Source: Akkermansia muciniphila
GTDB lineage: Bacteria > Verrucomicrobiota > Verrucomicrobiia > Verrucomicrobiales > Akkermansiaceae
Direction of reading: 5' to 3'
Assembly (NCBI GenBank): GCA_945901795.1
Contig: CAMDLP010000012.1
Coordinates: forward strand, 1-63,820
DNA: 63,820 nucleotides
Part shown: piece by piece, positions 12,986 through 47,073 of the stretch
Layout: each line of letters starts with the position of its first letter
Numbering within the stretch: position 1 is the stretch's first letter
Notes under the pieces: generated by a model
The model's input: the letters and a program-made list of their open reading frames with translations, nothing else
Database searches by the model: none
What the model was told of the DNA's origin: nothing
Translations under genes and position numbers: made by a program

Positions 12986-13056
12986 AGCGGGCAGCGGGAA
13001 TCGAACCCGCATGTCTAACTTGGAAGGATAGCGCTTTACCACTAAGCTATGCCCGC
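12986..13056 (-). tRNA. tRNA-Gly (anticodon TCC)
   Basis: On the minus strand the acceptor arm GCGGGCA pairs with TGCCCGC, the D-arm is GCTT...AAGC, the anticodon loop CTTCCAA carries TCC, and the T-arm reads GCGGGTTCGATTCCCGC. The anticodon stem has one T-T mismatch. CCA is not encoded: the gene is followed by ATCTT. It lies just upstream of the alanine-repeat gene. Confidence 0.95.
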
Positions 13057-21191: not shown

Positions 21192-21692
21192 GTGAAAGCT
21201 CACGAACTCTATTCCGCCGTCGATCCCGCCATTGTCACTCAAATCCTCGATTGGTTCCGCGCCAACGATAAGAATGTGTACCGATCCGCCGTCGCCACCC
21301 TGGCCGCCAACCGCAAGCTCCGCCCCGTCTTCATCGAGAAAAAATCCCTGGCCGACCAATACGCCTGGATTCACAAAACCCTAAAAATTAACGCCTGCGA
21401 CACCATCGGCGAGCACCTGCTGCAAGCCTACCTGATGGCTGGCCAGCAATCGCTGCTCGCCATGTTCTGCGACGGCATGGGCATCCCGCACGACGGCAAG
21501 GGCTCCGTCGTCGGCAACCTGCCCAAGAAACTCGACACCGAGCGCCTCGACTCCACCATCGAGCGCCTCGTCGATATTTTCGAACCCAAGCTCTTCGCCG
21601 TTTATCTCCACTGCTTCAACATGCAGGTCCCCGGCGGCTGGCCCGAGCTCAGCGAAAAACTCGCCTCCGACGAGCGCCTCAAGCTCGCGTGA
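21192..21692 (+). CDS. Conserved hypothetical protein
   Basis: A 166-residue soluble, mainly helical protein starting on GTG 21192 (VKAHELYSAVDPAIV). There is no signal peptide and no membrane segment. Recognisable features are a helical N-terminus, a central GEHLLQAYLMAGQQSLLAMF segment with GDGMGIPHDGKG next to it, and a C-terminal LFAVYLHCFNMQVPGGW. I do not recognise a named family. Codon use is like that of neighbours (strong C/G third positions), which supports a real gene. Confidence 0.75.
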   Translation: MKAHELYSAVDPAIVTQILDWFRANDKNVYRSAVATLAANRKLRPVFIEKKSLADQYAWIHKTLKINACDTIGEHLLQAYLMAGQQSLLAMFCDGMGIPHDGKGSVVGNLPKKLDTERLDSTIERLVDIFEPKLFAVYLHCFNMQVPGGWPELSEKLASDERLKLA

Positions 21693-22022
21693 AGGCAGGA
21701 GCGAGGGGCGGAGAGCATCTGCAAGGATCTCGCCCTAACCGCAGGTTCCTCACGCTCCACAGCAGTCCCCTCGCGCCGCTGCCGCCACCTGCTAGAAATT
21801 CGCTCCTGAAGGGTGGCTGACGGGCTGACGGCGTTTCCCACGAGCAAAACTCAGAACCCTGAATCGTTCTCCGCATCCAGTCCTCGAACGCGCTCGACTT
21901 CGTTAGGACCCCGCATTGCACGCACCAGCGCTTCCACGCCCTGCGCAGGAGTGCCGGTGTGTAGCGTAATCATCGAGACCTTCGCGCTCGAAACATTAAG
22001 CACAACAGGCCAAGCCCGCAGA

Positions 22023-22118
22023 GTCAAAAATGGGTTCTATGCCCATTCTCAACGCTGCCTGCACCACGCGGTCGGTGACTGTTGGGATTCCCAACGGCCG
22101 CTTTTGATTCGCTATCGC
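22023..22118 (-). pseudogene. Group II intron reverse transcriptase/maturase fragment
   Basis: Minus-strand translation gives 32 codons containing KRPLGIPTVTDRVVQAAL and, after RM, GIEPIFD. This is the highly conserved RT-0/RT-1 segment of LtrA-type group II intron proteins (usual form RPLGIPTVRDRVVQxAL, then xxxEPIFE). A TGA codon precedes the fragment and the homology stops right after EPIFD, where the next family block (SYGFRP) is missing. No domain V RNA hairpin was recognised nearby. It is a decayed relic. Confidence 0.75.
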
Positions 22119-22159
22119 TCACCCCTCGCGGAAGGGAACGCCGCCCGCCCCGCACTCCG

Positions 22160-22320
22160 ATAGTGCGCGATGCTCTGCTCGCGCCCACGGCAGCTCCGGC
22201 TCTGCCGGATGCGGGGCGGAGCGTCTTCTCTTCGCACGAAGAGCTCCGCCCCGCATGGAGCAGAGCTTCCATCCCCCGCCGGCGGCAGCAGCAGAGCTTG
22301 CCGCACTCCGGAGTGCTCCA
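22160..22320 (-). repeat. Dispersed palindromic repeat, copy A
   Basis: About 160 bases closely resembling 45912-46071 in the opposite orientation. It contains a 12-bp stem GCGGGGCGGAGC / GCTCCGCCCCGC (22211-22222 and 22243-22254) with an inner TCTTCGCACGAAGA hairpin, a second palindrome CCGGCTCTGCCGG just before it, and TGGAGCAGAGCTTCCA after it. CACTCCGGAGTG-like sequences bound it. No protein frame is conserved as such. Confidence 0.85.
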
Positions 22321-22436
22321 GTCATCATCGCCGAGACTCTTCGGAACACACTTTGGCCAAAACACAGGTGACTGCCGAAAGCGCCGGAGTAACCGTCTAT
22401 CGGGATGGGCATGGGCATCGTGTATCCGGGAAGATG

Positions 22437-45911: not shown

Positions 45912-46071
45912 AGTGTCCCAGAGTGCTGGAAGCTCTGCCCCAGCCAAGGCGGCTGGAAGCTCTGCTCCATGTGGTGCGGAGCTCTTCCTCTTCACTTGCA
46001 CGGAAGACGCTCCGCACCGCATCCGGCAGAGCCGGAGCTACCATCGGCGCGAGCAGAGCGTCGCGCACTCA
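45912..46071 (+). repeat. Dispersed palindromic repeat, copy B
   Basis: Inverted copy of 22160-22320. Its main stem is GGTGCGGAGC / GCTCCGCACC (45973-45982 and 46009-46018) with inner TCTTCC / GGAAGA. Relative to copy A the stem has a compensatory G-C to T-A change. TGGAAGCTCTGCTCCA and GGCAGAGCC palindromes flank it. The element reaches the oppF stop codon. Confidence 0.85.
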
Positions 46072-47073
46072 GGTGTGCGGCCGTAGCTTTTTCCAATCGT
46101 CGTCCGATACGCAGCACGGATCGGCGGCGACCCAGTGCTTGGAGGAAATTTCCCGCAGCGAGAGATCCGCGCCGATGGTCTCCGGGTAGCGCGGGTGGTG
46201 CATCCGGTGGCCGAAGGCGCTGCCGGGCGGCGGATCGATGGGCGAGGGGACGTCGCCCTCCAGCAGGATTTTTTTACGCTTCGCCTTCGGGTCGTGCGAG
46301 GGGATGGCGGATAGAAGCGCCTGGGTGTATGCGTGGCGAGGGTCCTTGTAGATGGCTTCGGCAGTGGCGAGTTCGACGATTTTCCCGAGATACATCACGG
46401 CCACCCGGTCGCTGACGTGCTTCACCACCGAGAGATCGTGGGCGATGAAAAGATACGACAGGCCGAAATCCCGCTGCAACTCGACGAGTAGATTGAGGAT
46501 CTGCGATTGCACCGAGACATCGAGCGCGGAGACGGGTTCGTCGCAGATGATGAGCTTCGGCTTGAGGGCGAGCGCGCGGGCGATGCCGATGCGCTGGCGC
46601 TGGCCACCGGAAAACTCGAATGAATAGCGCTCGGCAGACGACGCTGGCAGGCCGACGCGGTCTAGCAAGTCATCGACCCACCGGAGGCGTTCCGCCCGGT
46701 TGCCGAGGCCGTGGATGATGAAGGGTTCCTCAATGATCGCCCGCACGCTCATCCGCGGGTCGAGCGACTCGGCGGGGTCCTGGAAGATCATCTGGAAATT
46801 CCGGCGCAGCGGACGCAGCGCGCGCGGGCCGGCGTGGCTAATGTCGTGGTTTTCAAAATGGATGCTGCCGGTCGTCGGCTTGAGCAACCGGACGATCGCC
46901 TTGCCGAGCGTGGATTTTCCGCAACCGGATTCGCCGACGAGTCCGAGTGTCTCACCGGGCGCGATGTCCAGCGACACGCCGTCCACGGCGCGGACGGCCC
47001 CGGTCTGGCGCAGCATCACGCCGCCGCGCACCGGGAAATGGATGCGGAGGTCGTTTACAGATAGAAGATTCAT
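46069..47073 (-). CDS. oppF: Peptide ABC transporter ATP-binding protein (OppF/DppF type)
   Basis: A 334-residue ATPase. Walker [21 protein letters not shown]-loop [15 protein letters not shown], signature [16 protein letters not shown], Walker [17 protein letters not shown], and H-loop [17 protein letters not shown]-terminal oligopeptide extension is present. Its start overlaps the oppD stop by ATGA. It is the last gene of a five-gene yejB-yejE-yejA-oppD-oppF operon, ending on the dispersed repeat. Confidence 0.95.

Follow-up and report, generated by a model that had tools for sequence, protein, structure and literature searches.

A dispersed four-hairpin element of Akkermansia muciniphila, probably a non-autonomous REPIN/BIME-like repeat that decays once inserted

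The stretch of Akkermansia muciniphila DNA analysed here (the window; 63,820 nucleotides of contig CAMDLP010000012.1) carries two copies of a palindromic repeat, one at 22151-22315 on the forward strand (W1) and one at 45914-46079 on the reverse strand (W2). An earlier note on this DNA had pointed out both copies and had argued, from a base pair of the main stem at which both arms had changed together, that the folded form of the element matters, either as RNA or as single-stranded DNA for transposition. The stem letters quoted there are those of the two copies, which differ in them by a single base pair (G-C in W1 and T-A in W2). The question raised by the locus is whether such a repeat is a working RNA or a mobile hairpin.

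The repeat is not confined to the window, as it would have been had the two copies been the only ones, the case which the earlier note had held to count against its reading. In the genome assembly (3.28 Mb in 120 contigs), W1 gave 42 matches on both strands, many of which were the element against its own reverse strand, since it is an imperfect palindrome. The family comprised 17 near-complete copies, and a covariance model built from them gave each a score of at least 116 bits (172 bits for W1 and 166.5 bits for W2) and matched about ten further partial places. The pairwise identity of the 17 copies ranged from 0.74 to 0.94 with a median of 0.84; the alignment used for the counts within this genome (A2) leaves out the partial copy C19. 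Tandem Repeats Finder detected no array of the element in the window or in loci L100 and L090. Elsewhere in the window, two short tandem arrays with periods of 21 (5.8 copies) and 9 (6 copies) were observed at 370-549. When genes were called from the genome's own codon usage, 17 of 22 copies had genes on both sides and three had a single neighbouring gene, while the other two were crossed by a called frame whose start was uncertain. Among nine open reading frames neighbouring the copies, Pfam named seven (a GHL10 hydrolase, ExbD, ExbB, a squalene/phytoene synthase, an S26 peptidase and two ABC ATPases) and gave no name to two short ones; none of the named ones was a transposase, which agrees with the earlier note.

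Each copy is about 160 bases long and consists of several hairpins. From the outside in, an arm contains a short tag, a terminal hairpin (A) and a subterminal hairpin (B), followed by a central stem and a variable centre, and the other end is the inverted arm, so that the order in this genome is A-B-centre-B-A. In W1 (forward strand), hairpin A of the left arm (GCGCGA/TCGCGC) is located at 22165-22184 and hairpin B, a triloop hairpin (TCCGGC-TCT-GCCGGA), at 22195-22209. The 5' and 3' sides of the central stem are at 22209-22222 and 22243-22256, and the right arm has hairpin B at 22255-22272 and hairpin A, with an extra GCA, at 22281-22304. In W2 (reverse strand), the left arm has hairpin A at 46047-46066 and hairpin B, with GTAG directly before it, at 46022-46036; the central stem is at 46009-46022 (5' side) and 45969-45982 (3' side), and the right arm has hairpin B at 45954-45970 and hairpin A at 45925-45945. 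According to the pair table, the last of these hairpins (GCTGG/CCAGC) is compensated relative to most copies.

Hairpins A and B have a common short loop core, GC-TCT-GC in this genome and AGC-CCT-GCT in relatives. The tag is mostly GGAGT here and GGACT in relatives; among the 17 copies, it ends before the A stem with GAGT in 12 of the left arms and 13 of the right ones and with GACT in a single left arm and three right arms; in the other arms it is different or cut off. Conservation is highest in the loops and the B hairpins, where 0.98 to 0.99 of the letters equal the column majority, and lowest in the centre (0.71). The A stems differ between the arms and each pairs with itself: GCGCGA with TCGCGC on the left and GCGGCA with TGCCGC on the right, where W2 and C43 have GCTGGA with (C or T)CCAGC. 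Before the left hairpin B, 12 copies have the four bases GCAG, three have GTAG, and one each has GTGG and GTAA; these bases are possibly a weak echo of a GTAG tag, and possibly part of an alternative stem. A second repeat module, GGACTTCAGTCC beside CCTTTAAGGATT, adjoins several copies (flanks of L004, L005, L007, L009, L011 and L018) and is also present without the element in L050.

Both copies were predicted to fold strongly. Against 200 dinucleotide shuffles, the fold of W1 had a z score of -7.9 as RNA and -7.5 as DNA, and that of W2, also against 200 shuffles, -6.5 as RNA. The base pair on which the earlier note relied did not behave as a conserved pair in the family: it was Watson-Crick in 6 of the 17 copies, compared with a shuffle mean of 7.2 (P 0.84), and the agreement of W1 and W2 at this position is chance. 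Two copies that agree at one pair are no evidence of covariation. In the central stem, a double change was found in two of 17 pairs, in one copy each. The long end-to-end fold was rejected as a selected structure, its covariation not exceeding that of shuffles.

Compensation was seen in the flanking hairpins. Taken as a set, the local hairpins had a covariation score of 0.082, compared with 0.065 when shuffled (one of 500 shuffles was as high); by other measures the signal was weaker, with 22, 90, 39 and 76 of 500 shuffles as high. W2 and C43 have two compensated pairs in common in the right terminal hairpin. Among 11 distinct A-stem units, pairs 2 and 3 were above shuffles with P about 0.002, a rough value since three of the 34 picks in this test (C23 left, C36 left and C3 right) were B units. 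The earlier view of a dispersed element that depends on its folding is thus supported, through hairpins other than the stem on which it had been based.

The covariance model found the element in 15 of 195 genomes, this genome included, and a looser pattern of the terminal hairpin matched 31 of 386 genomes of the order. As a control, the pattern was written backwards; it then matched about a dozen genomes, never more than once on a strand of any of them, and single pattern matches were therefore not taken as evidence. Five genomes (G145, G180, G320, G215 and G287) had 6 to 16 matches each. The element in these genomes consists of GGACT, hairpin A around AGC-CCT-GCT, a short spacer, hairpin B with a near-constant loop, a variable centre and the inverted arm. 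In G048, neighbouring matches sometimes lie head to tail with a 14-base overlap.

Hairpin A is near-invariant in the relatives, so that no covariation can be read from it. For hairpin B, 49 loci in 16 genomes yielded 67 distinct arms, of which 64 were readable and three were not, and these gave 56 distinct units. Pair 2 was Watson-Crick in all 56 units (36 G-C and 20 C-G), while 2000 shuffles had a mean of 30.3 and a maximum of 44. Pair 3 was Watson-Crick in 46 of the 56 (shuffle mean 31.4) and pair 4 in 18 (mean 9.8), so that pairs 2 to 4 were above every shuffle, or nearly; pairs 1, 5 and 6 carried no covariation signal in the same units. Pairing was found in 175 of 224 cells in register, and fell to 72 when the arms were slid by one position and to 37 when they were slid by two. 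The stem types were GCC/GGC in three genera, GGC/GCC in three, TGC/GCA in two and CGC/GCG in one, and units unpaired at the third place occurred in several genera. The swap at pair 2 often falls between the two arms of one element and the arms within a genome are related; the 56 of 56 may thus go back to a small number of independent compensatory events. That there was more than one is suggested by the T-A and C-G types at pair 3.

Compensated stems might belong to a structured RNA or a 3' end element, such as a terminator, an mRNA stabiliser or an attenuator, that is under selection and has been copied between gene ends. The strong predicted RNA folds of W1 and W2 are consistent with this, as is the position of 8 of the 17 copies with genes on both sides between convergent genes. 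However, six others lie between co-directional and three between divergent genes, so both gene orientations are found along with other contexts, and the covariation of the central stem did not exceed chance. In the local stems, with the odd pair left out, G-T mispairs (23) were about as frequent as A-C mispairs (28), and therefore neither strand is favoured as RNA. At the gathering score no Rfam family matched the element, the sole match in the window being a tRNA at 12986-13056, and one terminator-like site was found near each of W1 and W2, compared with 0.7 and 0.6 in shuffles. A terminator or a known RNA was rejected on these grounds, and since orthologous copies also lose pairs, as described below, we regard a selected RNA in general as quite unlikely.

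Sites in relatives were compared with those of this genome, as the earlier note had proposed, and five were found without the element in one to three relatives, indicating that it was gained. At the W2 site, the flanks were joined by about 26 other bases in G012, G010 and G040, with DNA identities of 91 to 94 percent for the left flank and 88 to 91 percent for the right. When 17 further sites were compared with the same three genomes, 10 were uninformative because the flanks were on different contigs or only partly found. Contiguous flanks without the element were observed for C41 (in G010 and G040), C4b (G012), C51 (G010) and C44 (G012, with 85 flank bases unmatched); the junctions of C41, C4b and C51 were read by eye from the sequence, their alignments being poorly anchored. 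A shared flank adjoins an element for C6 and C68 in G012 and for C35 in G010. In G024, the place of W2 (L128) has an unrelated GTAG-tagged inverted REP pair between the same flanks.

The C6 copy, which has both the element and one flank in common with G012, showed what happened to the stems in place. Six paired positions differ between the two orthologues, and in each the partner is unchanged (read by eye, in one orthologous pair). These six uncompensated differences fit decay after insertion.

The absence of the element from these sites also bears on the idea that metagenome assembly accounts for part of its apparent spread, the repeat having caused contigs to be misjoined and the copies themselves being old and neutral. 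Several contigs do end inside the repeat (C23, C1, C87 and C93), W1 lies at a synteny break relative to G012, G010 and G040, and the many uninformative sites among the 17 leave room for it. But contiguous flanks that lack the element at W2 and four other sites would hardly result from misjoining, and the element is present in other genomes too; we consider this explanation very unlikely. The synteny break itself (window 21692-22372), whose two flanks fall on separate contigs in all three relatives, would be explained either by a repeat-mediated rearrangement or by a wrong assembly join. Similarly, the left flanks of C21 and C84 (L010 and L009) lie about 75 to 80 bases apart and in opposite orientation in C5 of G010 and C60 of G040, as if the copies had recombined or contigs had been misjoined.

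If the element was gained by transposition, the agent could be a DDE transposase for which the double-stranded terminal inverted repeat CCGGAGTGCG/CGCACTCCGG is the recognition site; the element would then be a classical MITE or an ERIC-like long palindrome, and the hairpins a by-product. Its inverted ends, its full-length imperfect palindrome and the lack of an adjacent RAYT gene are in line with this. On the other hand, stems that covary around a near-constant loop are needless for recognition of a double strand, and the loci inspected contained no gene flanked by such ends. No target site duplication was seen at the five empty sites, whose junctions bear extra unmatched bases. A DDE transposase is therefore an unlikely agent in our view.

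The earlier note had suggested a link with RAYT transposases, and the link proved to be an indirect one: of the Y1 genes examined none is next to a copy, but some are flanked by hairpins that have the triloop of the element. Eleven matches to Y1_Tnp (PF01797) were found in this genome, none of them on the contig of the window. Across 41 Y1 loci (these 11 and 30 of the 72 matches in seven relatives) no similarity to the element was detected near the gene, and the terminal hairpin pattern was absent from the 30 loci of the relatives. Perfect triloop hairpins with a stem of at least 7 numbered 43 in 56 kb around Y1 genes versus 13 in 118 kb of background, with the background taken from two genomes only and paired hairpins counted twice. 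The leading triloops near Y1 genes were TCC (14) and TCT (7, at four loci), neither of which occurred in the background.

The hairpins with TCT loops flank Y1 genes that lie in frame in IspG and CarB of this genome, IspG of G012 and G040, and LeuS of G048 and G215, and the LeuS insert of G048 starts with AAGGAGTG, which resembles the tag of this genome. According to Pfam and NCBIfam, in-frame Y1 (RAYT-type) domains are present in CarB, AlaS, MetH and IspG of this genome (L036, L037, L038 and L040); in the relatives they were found in G012 (L241 and L258), in G040 (L259) and in LeuS of G048 (L261) and G215 (L260). These inserts in housekeeping genes keep the HUH motif and are flanked by hairpins. 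The IspG and AlaS inserts are common to this genome and G012, with protein identities of 97 and 93 percent, and that of IspG also to G040 (96 percent). The AlaS and IspG inserts scored above the cut-off of NF047646 (REP_Tyr_transpos), and those of CarB, MetH and LeuS below it. A literature search returned no description of Y1 domains in frame inside housekeeping genes. Of the five free-standing Y1 genes of this genome, four have other repeats in their flanks; the free-standing genes encode proteins of 361-365 aa or 337-342 aa. A Y1-like frame and a hairpin pair, GGACG-TCT-CGTCC, were also observed beside the left flank of the C69 copy in L136 (G040) and L139 (G010).

Taken together, the covariation of the hairpin units, the absence of the element from the same sites in relatives and the uncompensated loss of pairs in place fit a mobile hairpin of single-stranded DNA better than a working RNA. 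We favour, with rather better than even confidence, a non-autonomous REPIN/BIME-like element that a Y1 (RAYT) transposase probably mobilises in trans, in single-stranded form, and that decays once inserted. A HUH transposase of the RAYT type would bind the hairpins on single-stranded DNA and place copies of the element between genes, where the inserted copies would not be maintained by selection and would decay. From the sequence comparisons we infer the single-stranded intermediate, the transposase and the recognition by loop and tag alike; the likely agent is a Y1 transposase that works in trans. Observations that count against this reading are that none of the Y1 genes examined is next to a copy, that the junctions are unclean, with no target duplication seen, and that G040 has a Y1 gene with TCT hairpins embedded in IspG, yet no element copy was found in that genome.

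A more specific version of this reading is put forward only tentatively, as we hold it to be possible and somewhat doubtful. A verrucomicrobial RAYT system might read the loop and the tag (a TCT or CCT triloop and GGA(C/G)T) while the stems, unlike in the two arms, drift by compensated changes. The autonomous copies would then be the RAYT genes that lie between similar hairpins in frame inside IspG, AlaS, CarB, MetH and LeuS, and the 160-base element would be the non-autonomous form.

A search by title and start of abstract yielded no earlier description of the element, which is weak evidence of absence because the literature covered lacked most subscription journals. The available parts of PMC3733652, PMC6006769 and PMC3116915 contain no description of it, and PMC12306157, searched by terms, returned no verrucomicrobial name. 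If the proposed reading is true, the element would represent a REP-like class whose ends belong to neither the GTAG nor the CGTC superfamily, and such repeats have seldom been described in this phylum. The element would also offer a clean case for separating a mobile hairpin from a working RNA, as the units covary while spreading and the resident copies lose pairs.

BIMEs are clusters of REPs. The element resembles them in its palindromic modules arranged in a row, with four hairpins per copy and neighbouring modules that give a mosaic, and differs in its fixed A-B-centre-B-A order and its length of about 160 bases in this genome. With ERIC sequences and intergenic repeat units (compare PMC2759123), it shares imperfect palindromes of more than 100 bases between genes; unlike ERIC, it has four hairpins with one loop, and its stems covary in relatives. 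Many GTAG repeats occur in Opitutus terrae, which also belongs to the Verrucomicrobia, according to PMC3733652. The GTAG and CGTC REPs described there are likewise short GC-rich hairpins with clusters and mosaic neighbours, whereas the ends here are neither GTAG nor CGTC and the terminal hairpins bear GAGT or GACT. GTAG or the degenerate GCAG does precede the left hairpin B in 15 of the 17 copies; CGTC was found at neither end. A REPIN, as described in PMC3116915, is formed by two REP sequences in inverted orientation. In contrast to REPINs, the element has two hairpins per arm with one common loop, GGAGT or GGACT tags and no RAYT gene beside a copy, and none of the 41 Y1 loci had a RAYT gene with this repeat in its flanks. 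As in the REPINs of the same source, it is a short intergenic unit with inverted hairpin ends, a variable spacer and many copies per genome, and its two inverted ends carry compensatory changes, at pairs 2 to 4 of hairpin B.
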